From positions 124,001 to 188,000 of the forward strand of contig NZ_OZ026458.1 in NCBI RefSeq assembly GCF_964019625.1: DNA of 64,000 bases. Reading direction: 5' to 3'. Shown in pieces: positions 28,221 through 38,710 of this stretch. The notes under the pieces are model-generated. The model ran no database searches. It was not told the origin of the DNA and saw only the letters and a program-made list of their open reading frames with translations. A program made the position numbers and the translations under genes. Position 1 is the first letter of the stretch, and every line of letters begins with the position of its first letter. The stretch is from Spiroplasma endosymbiont of Diplazon laetatorius. Its GTDB lineage: Bacteria; Bacillota_I; Bacilli_A; Mycoplasmatales; Mycoplasmataceae.

Positions 28221-28322
28221 AATTAAAAAAACATTTATAAATGGAACCATAAAATATTTTAAACCAATAGAATAGGACAATATTAATGGTTGGCTGGGTG
28301 GGATTGTGAAGAAAGGTCAAAT

Positions 28323-28973
28323 ATGTTTAATACTTTAATTAGTTTTATAGGTGCTGCAAGTATAATTGCAGCACCTATTCTTAATGTTGCTGAGACTAAA
28401 GAAAATAAAGTCTTATATAAAAAAGATTCTGGAAATGAGAATGTAGAGTATATTGGAGATGAAATCGTTTTATATTTCGAGTCACATCCAGAGCCTACGA
28501 TATTAAACTCTGGTAATGCCATTTCTAATAATACTTCAGAAAGTCTTTTTGTTTATAGTTTTGATATGGGTGAAACTCCTGTTTGAGAATATTCTTTAAA
28601 CAAAAATAATTACCCAAGCAGTGATGGTTCAGTAATAACATGAAAATGGGGAGATGCATATATGTTCCCTGAAAATGAGTTCTATGAAAAACTTAGATGA
28701 AGTAAAGATTATCCCTTAACTGATGGTTCTGTAGAAGACATGGATTTTGATGAAGTTGTAGAATTAACAGATATATTGGTAGATGAAAACTGATATAGAT
28801 TTGAGTCTGAATCAAACATAAAAGTGGGTTCTGCAATAACATACTATTATGATAATCAGAATATAATTTTAGAGTTTGTAGTTTATTTCAGTGTTGGTGT
28901 AATCAACTCAGATAAAACAAGCAGCTTCAAACTTAGTTTAGGAAATAGTTTAAGTTTATACAAACCGTTTTAA
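28323..28973 (+). CDS. Predicted secreted protein, unknown function
   Basis: A 216-aa protein with an N-terminal hydrophobic signal (FNTLISFIGAASIIAAP, residues 2-18), no lipobox Cys and no further membrane segment. The mature part is acidic and rich in aromatic residues. I do not recognise a family. The start at 28323 is preceded by GAAAGG with 6-bp spacing. It is a single-gene unit with its own terminator, just before the helicase operon. Confidence 0.65.
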
Positions 28974-28978
28974 TGGAT

Positions 28979-29012
28979 TAAAAAATATCGGCTAAGTAGT
29001 CGATATTTTTTA
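28979..29012 (+). terminator. Terminator after secreted protein
   Basis: AAAAATATCG / CGATATTTTT hairpin, loop GCTAAGTAGT. Confidence 0.85.
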
Positions 29013-29024
29013 ATTTCCTAAAAA

Positions 29025-29033
29025 TGCTATAAT
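29025..29033 (+). promoter_or_regulatory. Extended -10 promoter of helicase operon
   Basis: TGCTATAAT, 33 bp before the helicase ATG; no -35 box. It is the only clear promoter I see before 38710 on this strand. Confidence 0.55.
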
Positions 29034-29066: not shown

Positions 29067-32000
29067 ATGTCAAATATTATTGAAAATAATGGTGTTAAAG
29101 AGATATTTTTAGACTTTTCATTCTTACAAAATGTGCAATTTAAAGAAAACCCCGCAACCCTAGATCAAATAATAGAGCAATTAGACATAAAGGGTGTTGC
29201 TACTTATTTGGATTTTCATAATTTCTTAAGAAACTCAATGGCAAAAAAATCTTTTATATGTTTATTGGATGATAAAACTAGACAATTGTCAAAAAAAGAT
29301 AAAAACAAGTCATCTTACAATGGGATTATAAGAATAGAGTTAGACTCAAAAAGTCAGTCACTTTTACCTGAAGGCACATACTTGGGTTTTTATGTTAATA
29401 TCGATACAAAAAATGTATCACTAACCATAAGTTCTATTTTTATGACAAGACTTAAACCTGTAGCTCAAGAGTTTGAAACTATAATTCAAGAATCACAATT
29501 ATTTTTAATTAGAAATCAAGGACAAATAAAAGATGATGAAATAATAAGAAGAAATGTGTTGAATTCCTCAAATATCTCAGAGGTTGGTAAATTACTATCA
29601 ACCTTTGAAGAGGAAAAAGAAAAATGACTAAATTATTTAGAGTTTAGTGAAGACCTTTTAAAATTAGAAAGAAAAAAATCTTTACCTTATCTTGGAGCTG
29701 AATCTTCAAAAGTTATTAAAATAGATAAGATTCATTTCAAAAGTGAATTGTTTGAGTATGAGATTAAGGAATTAAAATCAAAAAGTTTTAAATATTTGAT
29801 TTTAAACTCAGAAAGTATTTTAAAAAGCAGAGATATTCCTTTTGATAAAACCAATGTCGTAACTCTTGATTTACTAACTGATGATCTAGAAAAAATAAAC
29901 AAAATTAAAAAAACAAAAGATTTATCACTTGTTCCTGTAAAGAGAAATAAAAACATAACCACCACTCATGAACTTATCAAAAATATTCATGATATTTTTG
30001 ATTTTGATTTTGAAAAAACAAACGAAACACAAAATATTCTCTCTCTAACTACAATGCTTGGGGTATCTGAAGAAAGTATGAGCTTTGCAAATTACTGATC
30101 AAGAAATCCAAAAACTATATTTTTGGGAGAGAGAAATGAATTTGAAACTTTATTAAAGGACAATCCAAATGAAATGGAAAAGTGACTTGTTAAAAAAATT
30201 AGTTTTGAAATAGAAAACGATTTTGACTCTTCTTTATTTACTATAAAAAATAATTTAGATTACTTAAGTTCAGGTTACATTGCTTATACAGGTATTGGTG
30301 AGGATGTTCTGATAGAAAGATCTAAACAAGTTATAAAAAAAATAGCTGATGGAAATACAAAAAATCCCTATCTTGTAAATTACTTATTCAATACAAGATT
30401 GGTTGAATTATCAGAAGTTTCAAATGATATTGAAATTGAAGATAAAAATTTTGAATTTAATTTAAACAATGAACAAAAAGAAGCTGTAAGAAAAGCTGTT
30501 AATACAAAAGATATTTTTATTTTACAAGGTCCGCCAGGAACAGGTAAGACTCAAGTTATTTGTGAAATTATAAATCAACTATCAAAACTAAATAGAAAAG
30601 TTTTACTTTCAAGTCAAAACCACGAAGCAATTAAAAACGTTGTAGACAGATTGCCAATTGATCCAAACTTAAATAAAGTTAGACTGACTAATCAACTTAA
30701 TTTAAAAACTCAAGCGGCTAATAATTACTCACCTGATAGAGTTCTTTATAACTACTATAAATCAATTGGGAAAAAAGCTTTTGATGATATGAATAATGAC
30801 GAAAATTCAATTAAAGAATTTTATAATTATAAAAATGATCTTGAGAGATTAATAAATGCAAACAAAAGTTTTCATCAAAACAATACTCAAATAAGATCAA
30901 TACAAGAAAAAATCGATGAGTTAAATCAAAAAATAATTTCTTTTAAAGAAAATAGTTTAGAAAAAATAAAAAATAAAAATTTTTTAAAAAAAGAATTAAT
31001 TAATGTTGAAAACTTAATTGAAATTTTATCTTCTAAAGATTTTGATGCAACAGTTAATATGGGTGAAAAACTTCTGGAATGTTATAAAAATTCTGCTGAG
31101 TATGAATTAAATAATTTTATTTACATGAATTTAAACTTTGATCCAAAAGATTTTTCTAACGTCTATTCTTTAATAAAAGAAGTGGCTAATGAAGTTTATT
31201 TTAAAAATGAAACTTTCATTGATATAAAAAATGCTAAAATTAATGCCATTAGACTTAGAAAAAATGCTGACTTCGATTTAGCAGAAAAAGAAGAAAGCAG
31301 GATAGCTGGATTAGAGCAAATTTTAAAAATGGATTCTAAAATTTTAGAACTAGACAAAATATTTGATACTCTTCTTTCTAATTTAAAAAATCTTAAATTA
31401 GAAATAGAAATTAATTTACAAGAAGATACTGCACAAAATAATTCTCAAGTTGATATTAATAAATTAGAAATTGAAAAAAATGAATTAACTGTTACAAAAA
31501 ATAATTTGAGTGAAAACTCTGGAGCAAACACAAAAGAGTTGAGAGATTTAATTAAAACAGTTAATCAAAAGTTTAACTTAAATCTTGGGTTAACAGATGT
31601 TGATTTAGAAGAACAAATAAAAAAAGAATTAAATAATTTAGAAAATAAATTAAAGGAAAGTAAAGAAAGAAAAGAAAACTTTTCAGAAATCTATACTGAA
31701 ATAATCAAATACTTAAATGATAACTATAAAATAACAGATAATTTTGAAGAAGAGTTGGCATCAAAAGATTTTTCTGGACAAATGTTTAAAGATAGTCAAA
31801 GATATATTCAATCAATTCTAGACAACTTGGTTAATGTTTATTCAATGACATTGACTTCAACAAACTTATTTAGATTTAACAAAGACAACTTTGCAACAAA
31901 ACTTGGTCTAGAAGAATTAAATTTAAGAAATATGGATGTAGATGTTGTAATAATTGATGAAGCTTCAAAAGCCACACTATTAGAAATACTAATGCCATTA

Positions 32001-32927
32001 ATTTATGGTAAAGCATTGATATTGGTTGGAGACTACAGACAATTGCCACCTATATTAAAATTACAACCAAGTGACGTTGAAGATGTAAATAAATATTTTG
32101 GAAAAGATTACAATTATAATTTAATGTATGAATTACTTGATGAGTCAGCATTTAAAAAGTTAATTGGAGCTAGAAATAAAACAATAACAACAATTTTGAA
32201 AACCCAATATAGAAGTCACGAACAAATAATGGATGTTGTTAATAAATTTTATGATGGAAATTTAAAAGTGGAACCACAAGTAAGTGAACAAAAACGTCAT
32301 GATTTAAAAATAACTAATCATTTTGGCAAAGATATTATTGATTCAAGAAGTTCTGTTTATTGAGTTGATTCAACTAATAATCTTCAAAATGAAATTAACT
32401 TTGAACAAAGTGAAGAGTTTTCAACAAGTTTATTTAATGATTTAGAAATTGAACTAACTAAAAAATTACTTAACGATATTGACAAAGCAGTTGAAATCAA
32501 AAAAACAAAAATAAAACCTACTGTAGCTGTAATAAGTTTTTATGGTTTACATGTAAGTAAATTAAAAAGAGAAATCAAAACAAGTAAATTTAAAAATGTT
32601 GAAATTGTAATTAATACAGTTGATGATTTTCAAGGAAAAGAAGCTGATTATGTTTTAGTTAACATGGTAAGAAATCCAGAAAAATTATCAACAAAATCAG
32701 GAAGAGAATTCTTGAAAAAATATGAGAGAATAAATGTTGCTTTTTCAAGAGCGAGAGAATTACTAATTATCATCGGAGCTCAAAGAACTGTTAATGATAT
32801 AACTGTAAAAATACCAACTGTTGAAGATCCTAACATCTCAAACAGTCATCAAGTATATGCAGATATTATTGCTAAACTTGATTTTGAAGGTTGCTTATTG
32901 CAACCAAATGAAATTATGGAGGACTAG
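29067..32927 (+). CDS. SF1 helicase, Upf1/Dna2/NAM7-like, large
   Basis: A 1286-aa cytoplasmic protein. Residues 1-470 are unlike anything I recognise. The helicase core has Walker A LQGPPGTGKTQV (about residue 485), SSQNHEAIKNVVDRLP (motif Ia), Walker B VVIIDEASKAT (about 962), motif III LVGDYRQLPPI (about 987), motif IV-like KTQYRSHEQIM, motif V DDFQGKEADYVLVNMVRN and motif VI NVAFSRARELLIIIGA. Motif V and the EA in DEAS place it with Upf1/Dna2 helicases, not UvrD. A coiled-coil insertion of about 400 residues separates Ia from II. First gene of a five-gene unit; the next ATG is 3 bp after the stop. Acting on RNA or DNA cannot be decided. Confidence 0.85.
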
Positions 32928-32930
32928 AAA

Positions 32931-35204
32931 ATGATATTTAATAAAATTGAAATTTTATATGATAAAGTTTGTTTACCTTTAAAAATTAAATATTCAGAAA
33001 TCAGAAAACCTACGTTTATGGAATTTTTGATTTTATTAATTATCATGGAACATCCTAACAAAACAAAAAACTTATCAGATATTTTAAAAGAAGATTTTGA
33101 TATAAGAAATCAAGCCTTATTTGAAAGAGCGTTGAGAGAATTAATAAATTTTAAAGTTATTGAAATTAACAAAGTTAGAGCCGGTATTGGTGCTTTAAAT
33201 ATGAAAACATCAATAGATAATTTTTATATAGATTTAAAAATACAACAAGAATTTAAAAAAGGAACTTACACAATTTCTCATGACAATAAATTTCAAGATG
33301 TTAAATATTTTATTGATCCAATAACTAAAGTTAATGAAATATTAAAAGACTCTAATTGAGCAAAAAGAGTAAGTGATCTAAAATTCAGTTATAGATTATC
33401 AATTCCGTTTGATAATTCACAACTAGAAAATAAGGAATTGATATTTTCAAAATCTCAGGCTTTTATGAAAGAAAAGTCAGACATATTTGGTGATGATTCT
33501 TTCTTGAAAGATATTTTAGTTGAAGGACAAGAATCAATTAATGAAGTTAATAGATTTAAAGAGTTTACAAAAAATGACACAGCTGCAATTGAAAGTTGAA
33601 TTGAAATTTTTGACAACGGCACTTTTAAAGTAAAAACTGACAATCAATATTTAGATGACTATCTAAGAATTAATCCTCATGTTGCTGCAGAAATATTAAA
33701 AGATGTTTCTACAAAGTATGAAGACAAAATCAAAAAAATATTTAGACCAGAAAATCAATTAAATAACATTCAGAATTTCATCTCATCTCCAGATCTTTTA
33801 TCCAATTTAAATGTAAAAACTACTTATAACTTAATTTTAATAAATGATCAACATGTTGAATCGGATAGCGAAATTATTAAGAATAAAGATTTAACAAAAA
33901 ATATTGAAGTTATTATTTTTTACAATTCAAAAAGAAATAACAAAATCATTGAAGTGGTAGATGGTAAAGTTATTTTCTATGTAGGTTTCATTCAAAACGA
34001 ATTATTACAAGACAATTCATTTATATACTTAGATTCTAAAAATGCTTCAAGTGCATTTTTGGTTGCAGAAAAGAAAATTGAATCTGTAAATCTAAATATT
34101 CCAGTTTTGTTTGCCTACAAAAATTCCAATAAAGTTTTAGATTTAGTTTCTTTATTTAAAGATAACATAGATGAAGTAATAGAGAGGTTTGAACAATCAC
34201 TTCTTGATTCTGATTATGAACTTGCTATGAATATATATTTAATTCTAGAAAGAATAGGATTGGAAGAAAAAGTATCAAAATCTTTAGAAAACTATCTTGG
34301 AAAAACAGTTGACAGCGGTACAAACTACAATGAAATGAAAAAATACTTATTAGAAATTGAAGATAGAAAATTATTTTTAATTCTAGAAAAAGTTGCTAAA
34401 AATTTAATAGTGAACTCTTCAAAAGAAAGAACTGACGATGAGTTTTTTGAATTAATAAAAAATTATAAATTTGTAGATACAAAAAATATTTTAGATATAT
34501 TTAATGAAGTAGATATTCAAAATAATATTGATAACATTTATAGGATAAATGACTTTTTAAGAAAGAATTCAATTGATGGATGAAAGTTTAATGTTAGAAA
34601 CTCATTGGTTGTTTTAACGGATTATTTCAAAAATAATAATAGAGCAGAAATGTTTGAGGAAAGTAAATATAACTCTGATGTTTGAAATCAACATGCAAGC
34701 ACACTAAATTTAATTGGTAAAATAACAAAAGAATTGTATATGTCTAATTATAAATTTGTTGAAGATAACTATAATTATCTATTAACATCATTACTTGAAT
34801 TGGTTGGTAACTCATTAGATATAAAAGACTTTGATGCTTACTTAATCAATTTATCAGAATCTTTAATAGACTTTTACAAGTCTTACTACAAATACAAGAG
34901 CGAAGAATTTTCAACAATAACAGAAGATATGATTGAATATAAAATTCAAATATTAGCTGGTGGTTATATTAATAAGGTTGAAGATGCACTAAATGAATTT
35001 ATAGATAAAAAACTATATAATATGCCAATTGAGTTAAAATTAGAGTGAGTTAAAAATGTTGAAAACAACTCATCGGTAGTTGATAAAATATTGAGAAATA
35101 ATGATAAAAATTACAAACAAGCTTTAAATATTATCTTTGGTAAAAAAAGAGAATATACACAAAGTGATTTATCAAAATACAGCACAATTTTTGGAGGAAA
35201 ATAA
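32931..35204 (+). CDS. Large unknown protein of helicase/AAA operon
   Basis: A 757-aa, mostly helical, soluble protein with no signal or membrane segment. The first 90 residues (PTFMEFLILLIIMEHPNKTKNLSDIL... ALFERALRELINFKVIEI) look like a winged-helix-type module, which is a pattern impression. The centre has a strand-rich part around residues 260-370 (TYNLILINDQH, VEVVDGKVIFYVGF). The C-terminal half is all-helical. Several Trp codons are TGA. It begins 3 bp after the helicase stop and is followed 2 bp later by the next gene, so all are co-translated. I do not assign a function. Confidence 0.7.
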
Positions 35205-35206
35205 TT

Positions 35207-36301
35207 ATGAGCATGACAGCAGAAGAAATTTTAGTTAATTGTGAAAAGCAATTTGGATTTATAAAAAAAGATATTGATGCTTTAATAAAATACATTAAAG
35301 AGTTAATTGGACATTGTGAAGAAATTGATCACTCTGGTTTTTACAAAAATCAAATTCAAGAATTATTAAACAGATTAACTAAAGAACAAGAAGATTTGGC
35401 TCAAAATACTTATGAAAGAGAACTATCTTCTGATACACATGTTGCTATTGAAACATATCATGAAATTCAAAGATATGCTGAAAGAAAAAGAGATGTCATA
35501 GCTGATTTCAAAGCTCAAGTATTTAACTTTAAAAAAGACGTTCTTGCAAAAGAACAAGAAAATATTTTAAAGGCTTTGGATAAAAATTTATTTGAAGACT
35601 TAGAAAAATTAAAAAACTCATTAATTGAAAAATATAAAGACGAAGAAGATAAACTTTACATTAAAAAAATGTTTGACGAAAGTGGACACATATTAATAAA
35701 TAAAAATAGCAATGAAATATATGATTTTGTTTTAGAAGAACTTAAAAAGAGAAAAGCTTCAAACAATGTTATTGCAAAAGAAATTGTATCTGGATCAATT
35801 GAGCTATACAGCGAAGACAGAGATCTTGTAGAAGCAATTAGAGATGAAGCTAAAAACTTCATGGGTTTTGGAGAATCAAAAAACTTCCAAGAAAACATGA
35901 AGAACTACTTTATTAATTCTTCTAAAATTGCAGAACAAGAAGCTGTAAGAAAAGATAATGTAATAAAAATAGTTAATGCCATCAGAGATGTTGGGTATAT
36001 CGTTAATGAAGACAATATAAGAAAACTTGAAGAAAAAAATATGATCTTAATACATGGTGAAAAACCAAGTGGTGAAACAGCTGACTTTGCTGTAAAATTA
36101 GATGGAAGTTTTATTTATAATTGAGAAGGATTTGATGGACATGAGCATGACGCTGATGCACAAGCATTCTTAAGCAAATTAAAAGAGTTCAACTTGCATT
36201 CAAGTGATGAATTCAATAAACAATATAGAGAGCCAAAGTATATTGCTAAAAATAAACAAATGTTAAAAAATAAAAATAGCAATTCAAACTCAAGCAAGTA
36301 G
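35207..36301 (+). CDS. Coiled-coil protein of helicase/AAA operon
   Basis: A 364-aa soluble protein. Residues 1-180 are predicted long helices (many heptad-like Leu/Ile/Lys/Glu runs). The C-terminal part around residues 265-345 is a compact domain with VNAIRDVGYIVNEDNI, HGEKPSGETADFAVKLDG and EGFDGHEHDADAQAFL; the pattern of ligand-like GxxADFxVxxDG then DxxxFL resembles small accessory domains in multi-gene ATPase clusters, but I cannot name it. The tail is Asn/Ser-rich and basic. It lies 2 bp after the 757-aa gene and 8 bp before the AAA+ gene. Confidence 0.7.
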
Positions 36302-36309
36302 GTGGAAAT

Positions 36310-38121
36310 ATGAGTGTAAAAAGAGAATTAAGTCAATTAAAAAATTTAATAGGAATTAAAAAAGCAATCATTATTGAAGGTAACATTGATGATATTTATG
36401 AATTTGAAGGTAAATACATTAACATCCATGAAATTGTTATGAATATTTTTGAGCAAAAAAATTATTCAGATAAATTTATTTTTGATCAAAACTCAGGATT
36501 AAAAGGTAAAAAAATTTCAAATCTTATTTTAACTTCAGCTGATCAAGGACAGGGTGAATCTGCTGCAAATGAATTCGATGAATTGTTTGGTGGTGGAAGT
36601 AACGACAAACCAGAGAAAAAAGATGAATTAAAATTAAAAAAACCTATTGATTTTTTTGCTATTTTAAACAAAAACATAAATAGAGAAGATGATAGAAAAA
36701 TTGGTTTTGTTGCAGACTATACAAACTTTGTATTTAGTGACCAAGGTTTAGATGTTGACGATAGAGCTGTGTTAACTGAATTTTCTAAAACTTTAAAAGA
36801 ATCGGATTTTTCTATTGCCAAAATCGATGAATTAACAAGTTGCATAATTTTCTTAACTAAAAAAATTAATCAATTACCACCAAGTTTATACTTAGATAAT
36901 CCAGAAATAATTATCTCTACTTTACCAAAACCAAGTAGAGAAGAAAGAAAAGAATTCTTATCAACAATCAAATCTAGAATTCAAGTTACAGATATTTCAA
37001 CAGAATTTGAAAATATAGTTGATGCAACCGAAGGTTGAACTTTAAAAGAACTATCTCACTTTGCTAAGTTTAGTTGTAACTTTGAAACGCCAATTACATT
37101 TACAAAAATGTTTAACATCTATAACTATGGTGAAAAAACTTCTCCATGAGAAGAGTTGAGCTATGAAAAAATGTTAACAATAAAAGATGAACTTTCTTCA
37201 AAAGTAATAGGACAAGATGAAGCTGTTGAAAAAGTGGCTAAAGTAATTTATAAAGCATATACAGGTTTAACTGGTATAACTTATTCTTCAAAAAGAAGTA
37301 AACCAAAAGGTACGCTATTTTTTGTTGGTCCAACAGGAACTGGTAAAACTGAACTTGCAAAAGCTATTACCACTTTCTTATTTAATGATGAAGCAAACTT
37401 AATCAGGTTTGATATGTCAGAGTATGGACAAGATAATGCAGATCAAAAATTAATTGGAGCTCCTCCAGGTTATGTTGGATTTGAAGGTGGAGGTCAACTT
37501 ACAAACTCTGTAAAAGAAAAACCATTTTCAGTAATTCTTTTTGATGAAATCGAAAAAGCAAGTCCAAAAATATTTGATAAATTTTTACAAATATTGGAAG
37601 ATGGTAGATTAACAGATAACACAGGTCAAACTGTAAGTTTTAGTGAGTCATTTATAATATTTACTTCAAACATTGGAGCAGCTGACGTTAATCCAAATCA
37701 AAGCACAGAAGATGTTCATAATGAATTTATAAAAAAAGTTCAAGAACATTTCACAAATGAACTAAACAGACCAGAACTTTTGGGAAGGTTTGGTAATAAC
37801 ATTGTTCCTTTTAACTTTATTAAAGACTTAAGTTTAAAATCAAAAATTATACGTCAAAAAGTTAAACCAATTCAAATTGCTATATATGAAAAATATAAAG
37901 CAGAACTTCATATTGATTTAAATGATCAAAGTTTAATTTCAATTATGTTAAAAAATGCAGATGAAAGAAGAGGGGGACGTGATGTTCTTAACTCACTAGA
38001 AACTAATCTTGTTGACCCTCTTTCAGAATTCATTTTTGAAAACTTACAAAACATTAAACCGGGAACTAAAATTTTAACTTCATCTGGTGAAGGAAAAATA
38101 AATTTTACAATAAATGGCTAA
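36310..38121 (+). CDS. ClpB-like tandem AAA+ ATPase
   Basis: A 603-aa protein. Residues 1-240 look like a degenerate AAA domain: IIIEGNIDDIYEF and FDQNSGLKG at the start and LPPSLYLDNPEIIISTLP with PSREERKEFL at its end, but no Walker A. Residues about 285-603 are an active ClpB D2-type module: VIGQDEAVEKVAKVI, Walker A GPTGTGKTELAKA (about 339), GAPPGYVGFEGGGQLT pore-loop region, Walker B LFDEIEKA (about 411), Arg finger in RPELLGRFGN and sensor 2 ERRGGRDVL. There is no Clp-N domain, no M-domain coiled coil and no clear ClpP-binding loop, so a dedicated remodelling role is more likely than general disaggregation. It overlaps the radical SAM gene by 8 bp. Confidence 0.85.
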
Positions 38122-38710
38122 TTTAAATATTGGCAAGTTTTTAATGAATAGTGAAATAGAAGGCCCTGGAACAAGATTTGTAATATGATTTCAAGGATGT
38201 AACATTGGATGTAAAGGGTGTTCTAATCAAGAACTTCTTTCTTTTGAAAAGAAGATGTTCATGCCAAATGAATTCATTTATGAGAAAATATTACAAGCTA
38301 AGGAAATGTTTGATATTGAGGGTGTGACTTTAATTGGGGGAGAGCCTTTCTTACAACCTGATGGGTTAAAAGAACTTGTCCAATGATGTCAAAAAAATAA
38401 CTTAACAGTTATTTGTTTTACTGGGTACATTTACGAAAAAATGCTCGAGGAGCATGAAGAAATTCTAAACAATATAGATATTTTAATTGATGGACCGTTT
38501 ATTATGAAACAATTAGATAAAAATAGAAGACTGATTGGAAGTAAAAATCAAAGAGTTATTAAAATAACAGATAAATATAAAGATTGTGATTATTTTGAGC
38601 AGCCACATTCAGAAGCAGAAATTCAAATTTATAACAATAGAATTTCTATAAATGGTGATGGTGTTATCTTTGATAATGAAGACGGTGAATTCAATTTTAA
38701 AATAAAGTAG
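38114..38710 (+). CDS. Radical SAM protein, NrdG/PflA-like (4Fe-4S)
   Basis: A 198-aa enzyme with the cluster motif CX3CX2C (Cys29, Cys33, Cys36 in GCNIGCKGC), preceded by EGPGTRFVIWFQG as in anaerobic ribonucleotide reductase activases, and the SAM-binding LIGGEPFLQP. The length and layout match single-domain activating enzymes. The C-terminal 60 residues differ from NrdG and are strand-rich. No glycyl-radical protein (NrdD or PflB) is in the window, and the gene starts inside the end of the AAA+ gene, so it more likely belongs to that operon's function than to nucleotide reduction. Confidence 0.85.

Follow-up and report, generated by a model that had tools for sequence, protein, structure and literature searches.

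A five-gene helicase, Clp-like ATPase, and radical SAM operon of Spiroplasma as a possible exapted derivative of a ribonuclease-based conflict system

Introduction

The genome of the Spiroplasma endosymbiont of Diplazon laetatorius, a mollicute that uses genetic code 4, consists of a single contig of 979,438 bp, and the 64,000-nucleotide stretch of it analyzed here (positions 124,001 to 188,000 of NZ_OZ026458.1, called the window) contains five closely packed genes for a helicase, a Clp-like ATPase, a radical SAM protein, and two proteins that could not be assigned by inspection. The question raised by this locus is what such a set does in a reduced genome, whether its members form a unit, and whether that unit serves defense, housekeeping, or a function derived from either of them.

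Operon organization and gene products

All five open reading frames are located on the plus strand where a sequence-only reading of the window had placed them, with spacings of 3, 2, and 8 bp and an overlap of 8 bp between the last two. An inverted repeat with a T-run on the same strand (28980 to 29014; AAATATCG..CGATATTTTTT), recognized by reading the sequence, is the likely terminator that closes the upstream region, and a perfect extended -10 promoter (TGcTATAAT, plus strand) is found at 29025 to 29033. A consensus promoter scan returned 66 promoter-like sites versus 68.4 in shuffled sequences, i.e., the chance level, and the assignment of the operon promoter therefore rests on inspection. 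No convincing plus-strand terminator was detected inside the operon. The interval between leuS and the operon also holds a 227-aa open reading frame (28290 to 28973) that is not conserved among relatives.

Gene 1 (29067 to 32927, plus strand; 1286 aa) encodes a UPF1/Sen1/SMUBP2-like SF1 helicase according to Pfam (AAA_11/AAA_12), PADLOC, and PDB profiles, the closest of the latter being SEN1, SMUBP-2, DNA2, and UPF1. Its Walker A motif lies at 30528 to 30551, a long insert separates motifs I and II, and among 22 relatives the helicase motifs are conserved in most or in all. The PADLOC model of the Mokosh helicase MkoA matches gene 1 (9.6e-93), the helicase of locus L085 (1.4e-97), and a plasmid homologue (1e-102). 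The literature searched contained no relevant paper on "PLuB," a name given by one of the NCBIfam models for helicases.

Gene 4 (36310 to 38121, plus strand; 603 aa) was assigned as a Clp/ClpB-like unfoldase on the basis of the NCBIfam ClpB model and motif counts. The match (1.6e-77) is confined to residues 285 to 599, and the protein had been described as a tandem AAA+ ATPase but has a single P-loop module, corresponding to the second nucleotide-binding domain (NBD2) of ClpB, with the Walker A motif at 37327 to 37350 and the pore loop GYVG. Walker A and B motifs, pore loop, and arginine finger of this module are each present in 23/23 relatives, and a Walker A motif is absent from the first ~280 residues in all 23 + 11 relatives. 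Identification as a ClpB or ClpA chaperone was rejected, given a score of 261.6 bits versus a cutoff of 1232 and the missing P-loop in the N-terminal half. PDB sequence profiles of this N-terminal domain (Clp N-domain) gave nothing meaningful, and the listed phage hits align to no more than roughly one-third to one-half of the query, in the AAA+ module.

Gene 5 (38114 to 38710, plus strand; 198 aa) is a radical SAM protein of the NrdG/PFL activase type (Pfam Fer4_12, 2e-35), whose CxxxCxxC motif (38198 to 38221) is conserved in 22/22 relatives. A prokaryotic viperin was considered and rejected, the pVip match being weak and partial (1.4e-8, residues 27 to 129) and the protein being of the Fer4_12/NrdG type instead. 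The closest characterized models, NrdG and PFL activase, would fit an NrdG activase that merely adjoins an unrelated operon, but the NrdG score of 105.3 bits falls under the cutoff of 126.1, the gene overlaps the Clp gene, and it co-occurs with the Clp N-domain in 38 genomes. Moreover, about 580 kb into the same genome (L192), nrdD is followed by a canonical nrdG, together a class III ribonucleotide reductase system, and gene 5 is thus not needed for the reductase. A chance neighbor of this kind is very improbable.

Gene 3 (35207 to 36301, plus strand; 364 aa) forms long helical hairpins and a C-terminal alpha+beta domain in its AlphaFold model (pLDDT 72), and homologues occupy the same slot in other organisms. 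PDB sequence profiles of the protein revealed nothing meaningful; for its C-terminal domain, similarity was seen to KA1 and to the N-terminal domain of spermine synthase (Z about 9 to 10) and, very weakly, to DUF2997, and these resemblances are regarded only as leads. A glycyl-radical substrate site within gene 3 was sought and discarded, as the alignments contain no RVxGY-type motif.

An effector position in gene 2 and the loss of its HEPN motif in Spiroplasma

Gene 2 (32931 to 35204, plus strand; 757 aa) was assigned as the effector subunit based on its N-terminal homology and on the RNase domains of its homologues. In the model of a homologue from Bacilli (pLDDT 89.6), the protein ends in a helical domain, and VIA-align superimposes residues 621 to 726 on HepT (7bxo; Z 9.9, 3.1 A over 106 residues) and finds the HEPN protein AF0298 (2hsb) at Z 9.8; both outscore the remaining matches, among them Csm6, Cas13bt3, and Csx1. 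The HEPN domain of this model was picked out by VIA-align only, and Foldseek searches with the full-length models of genes 2 and 3 returned nothing at E < 0.001. Pfam places DUF4145, a HEPN family (PMC3710099), on a gene 2 homologue (1.5e-4), the motif R[NDQ]xxxH occurs in 33/35 non-Spiroplasma gene 2 proteins versus 3% in shuffles, and the looser form Rx4-6H in all 35 homologues. On proteobacterial plasmids, gene 2 ends instead in a PIN domain (PIN_4, 1e-19 to 1e-24 in four homologues) behind an N-terminal domain that is related to that of the other gene 2 proteins (hhalign, 5.6e-8), and in an archaeal bin it ends in a Zc3h12a-type NYN ribonuclease (2e-10). HEPN, PIN, and NYN domains alternate at a single position, as is typical of exchangeable effectors, and gene 2 is, as judged from homology and models, the effector subunit and a predicted ribonuclease in other lineages. 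A Bacteroidota bin encodes a gene 2 protein that includes a fused Ppx/GppA phosphatase domain (L185:5731-9021).

In the family of the window, the Rx4-6H motif is found in 0/23 gene 2 proteins, the window copy included. The window protein retains the N-terminal domain common to all relatives (hhalign, 1.6e-10), but its C terminus has no detectable profile relation to HEPN or PIN, it has no Pfam match, no nuclease family was matched, and PDB sequence profiles gave nothing meaningful. The invariant residues of the Spiroplasma proteins are N305, Y331, N332, N336, W551, and E701, and the motor motifs and radical SAM cysteines of the operon are intact despite the loss of the HEPN motif. Because of this loss, the role of gene 2 was invisible from the window alone. 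Of the two proteins left without assignment in the sequence-only reading, gene 2 can now be described as an effector, with ribonuclease domains in other lineages; taken alone, neither gene 2 nor gene 3 finds a match in Pfam, NCBIfam, or PADLOC.

Distribution and genomic context

With a gene 3 profile, homologues were detected elsewhere in the class, in families other than that of the window, and there the same five genes occur in the same order under the standard genetic code. A scan of 85,000 species yielded 54 loci, 41 of them with the complete five-gene order, and the spacing between adjacent operon genes at these loci rarely exceeds tens of bases. The phyla include Bacillota, Mycoplasmatota, Bacteroidota, Campylobacterota, Planctomycetota, and others, with the reservation that many of the loci come from metagenome bins, whose taxon labels can be wrong. 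The set is also present in archaea and on proteobacterial plasmids, including a conjugative one, and the framing of the operon as a matter of mollicutes thus proved too narrow. Together with the order helicase, gene 2, gene 3, Clp, and radical SAM in 20/20 species of the genus, the 41 of 54 loci elsewhere are more than chance, and the operon is a real, single evolutionary unit; the possibility that the genes live mostly apart in other genomes was checked, and they stay together.

Outside the family, the operon is present in only ~2% of a Bacillota-wide sample. The plasmid copies were reached only with the Clp protein as the query, tblastn searches of plasmids with gene 2 of the window and of Bacilli being without a match, and no near copy was found in E. 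coli genomes. In a tree of the Clp protein, phyla are intermixed and Spiroplasma forms one clade (support, 100), which fits horizontal spread outside Spiroplasma and mostly vertical descent within it. The island neighbors outside Spiroplasma include type II, III, and IV restriction genes, AbiU and AbiE-like genes, and serine recombinases, and the plasmid copies have anti-restriction and integrase genes nearby. An IMG/VR contig classed as viral (L193) carries all five genes of the set, preceded by a serine recombinase, and no phage structural gene was recognized in the 15.6 kb read.

Further genes adjoin the operon at several loci. An RNase III-like gene (166 to 170 aa) follows the radical SAM gene in L140, L141, L142, L144, L159, and L189, at a distance of 2 bp in five loci and with a 1-bp overlap in L159, and a DEDDh exonuclease-like gene is located downstream in L143, L157, L168, and L169. 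Directly upstream, a helix-turn-helix protein of ~175 aa (MTTKLFERLVTKF...) is encoded in L140, L142, L143, L147, L160, L165, L167, L181, and L193, and at other loci it is replaced by a protein of ~310 to 335 aa without a known family. A four-gene variant that lacks the radical SAM gene (helicase, gene-2-like, gene-3-like, and Clp-like) occurs in mycoplasmas and in 3/20 members of the genus (L125 to L135); its neighbors include type II/IV restriction (L125), AbiU and type II (L126), and type III restriction genes (L135), two of the three genus copies lie beside restriction or Abi genes, and a clean HEPN motif is present only in L129 (LRKIRNDISH). A third arrangement (L122, L124, and L198) shares just its radical SAM gene and its Clp-like gene with the operon, the partners being a DUF4011-type helicase, a Ser/Thr kinase, an FHA/zinc-ribbon protein, and a PP2C phosphatase.

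Conservation and selection within Spiroplasma

In addition to the 20 species of the genus, one of them with a decayed copy, other Spiroplasma genera possess the operon. Its locus in the genus is mostly fixed, usually between leuS and folD/fhs. Among 60 genomes of the family, 38 encode the radical SAM protein, the same 38 and one incomplete genome encode the Clp N-domain, and 21 have neither. Compared with the two nearest species, the five genes show dN/dS values of 0.02 to 0.15 (0.025 to 0.10 for the nearest one), a range similar to that of leuS and fhs, which bears out the expectation of strong selection on such a set in a reduced genome. In the decayed copy of genome G014 (L036), gene 3, the Clp gene, and the flanks are still open, but the helicase is broken into four pieces, gene 2 contains TAA stops, and the radical SAM gene is truncated; the set is thus dispensable in G014. 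Locus L053 of genome G025 (85% complete) has the pair of gene 2 and Clp without gene 3 and the radical SAM gene, possibly a reduced version.

Discussion

The swapped RNase domains and the rare, phylum-mixed occurrence in a context of restriction, Abi, and recombinase genes point to an RNase conflict system of the defense type. The constant presence in Spiroplasma, the mostly fixed locus, the purifying selection, and the lost effector site suggest exaptation. The reading that we prefer accordingly has two parts, namely, a widespread five-gene, NTP-driven conflict system whose output would be RNA cleavage and its exaptation in Spiroplasma after the loss of the HEPN site, and as a whole we give it about an even chance. 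Its weakest part is the second one; the comparison of homologues suggests that the Spiroplasma operon is an exapted derivative, but the motif loss might also reflect replacement by an unrecognized active site. In addition, presence throughout one genus at a stable locus would be unusual for a defense system and counts against the conflict-system reading.

Mechanistically, the UPF1-like helicase and the N-terminal domain of gene 2 would load on and travel along foreign or aberrant RNA or DNA, and the Clp-like ring, possibly held by the coiled-coil gene 3 protein, whose role is a guess, would remodel the complex so that the RNase is armed or set free. The radical SAM protein may install or activate a modification on a partner within the system, and our guess is that gene 3 or gene 2 is the most likely recipient. 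The module would have been acquired early in Spiroplasma and kept in essentially every species, with its HEPN active site lost, and probably exapted for a role that depends on helicase, unfoldase, and radical SAM chemistry but not on RNA cleavage by gene 2. A bolder version, put forward tentatively and with more doubt than the reading above, is that a modular RNase is delivered by a complex of the UPF1-like helicase and the Clp-like unfoldase, one subunit of which is modified by the radical SAM protein, that this complex represents a new class of bacterial and archaeal immunity, and that Spiroplasma turned it into a core machine via deletion of the RNase site.

Two other readings have to be weighed against exaptation. 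The same conflict system could still be active against phages or plasmids in Spiroplasma, with a gene 2 whose catalytic site is unrecognized and not of the HEPN type; every other component retains its motifs, the effector slot has been swapped in other lineages, and the Spiroplasma proteins have invariant residues of their own. However, no nuclease family matches them, their C terminus has no detectable relation to HEPN or PIN, and a distribution over 20/20 species with a largely constant locus is not defense-like, the four-gene variant being present in just 3/20. We consider ongoing defense rather unlikely, but a gene 2 with a new, unrecognized active site is the strongest competitor of exaptation. 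A role in housekeeping RNA or ribosome quality control from the start, in which the helicase would open stalled RNA for trimming by the RNase, the Clp ATPase would extract proteins, and the radical SAM protein would mature a factor, would agree with the UPF1/Sen1-like helicase, the RNase III and DEDDh neighbors, and the core-gene-like behavior under purifying selection in Spiroplasma, but hardly with the rarity and phylum-mixed distribution of the operon, its conjugative plasmids, restriction and recombinase neighbors, and toxin-like swapped RNase domains, or the pseudogenized copy of G014. This origin appears improbable, and of the two options offered by the sequence-only reading for a dedicated multi-protein machine, the defense or conflict type is retained for the system in general, while in Spiroplasma itself the role may be of either kind.

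Known systems share single features with the operon. Mokosh combines its helicase with a PLD-type nuclease as a partner or fusion. The helicase of the operon is of the MkoA type, but neither a PLD Pfam domain nor MkoB was matched in the five proteins, nor in the PADLOC scans of homologues, and a Clp unfoldase, a HEPN, PIN, or NYN effector, and a radical SAM protein are present here instead. CoCoNuT systems, which are McrBC derived and predicted to target RNA, resemble the operon in the UPF1-like helicase, the coiled coils, and the theme of a HEPN-type RNase (PMC11090510); they differ from it in that there is no McrB GTPase among the matches of the operon, which has a Clp-type AAA+ module and a radical SAM protein instead. 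In most lineages, gene 2 ends, like HepT and DUF4145 proteins, in a canonical HEPN domain with RNxxxH, but here a large and specific N-terminal scaffold precedes this domain in the same protein, which is encoded within a five-gene operon, and the motif is absent in Spiroplasma. ClpB, ClpA, Dodola DolB, and PADLOC PDC-M37B share the C-terminal AAA+ module with the GYVG pore loop, whereas the N-terminal half of gene 4 is P-loop free and family specific, with neither NBD1 nor a ClpP loop found. The vWA-MoxR FtsH ternary conflict systems likewise combine an AAA+ ATPase with a radical SAM effector that has been proposed to modify a partner (PMC7159879), but the operon has no vWA, MoxR, or FtsH component and includes a helicase and an RNase. 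The five-gene set corresponds to no named system of PADLOC 2023 and is described in none of the searchable papers, and the terms radical SAM and ClpB do not occur in the HEPN survey (PMC3710099). As far as these sources show, the set was previously unnamed, as had been supposed.

With the current analysis, genes annotated as hypothetical in a minimal-type genome become a single system for which an enzymatic output is predicted, and the versions with clean HEPN or PIN effectors in free-living bacteria and on plasmids make it testable in easy hosts. If the proposed function is correct, the operon would be unusual in placing a helicase and a protein unfoldase, together with radical SAM chemistry, at the service of one RNase, and in Spiroplasma it may be a case of a defense module that has been domesticated in mollicutes.
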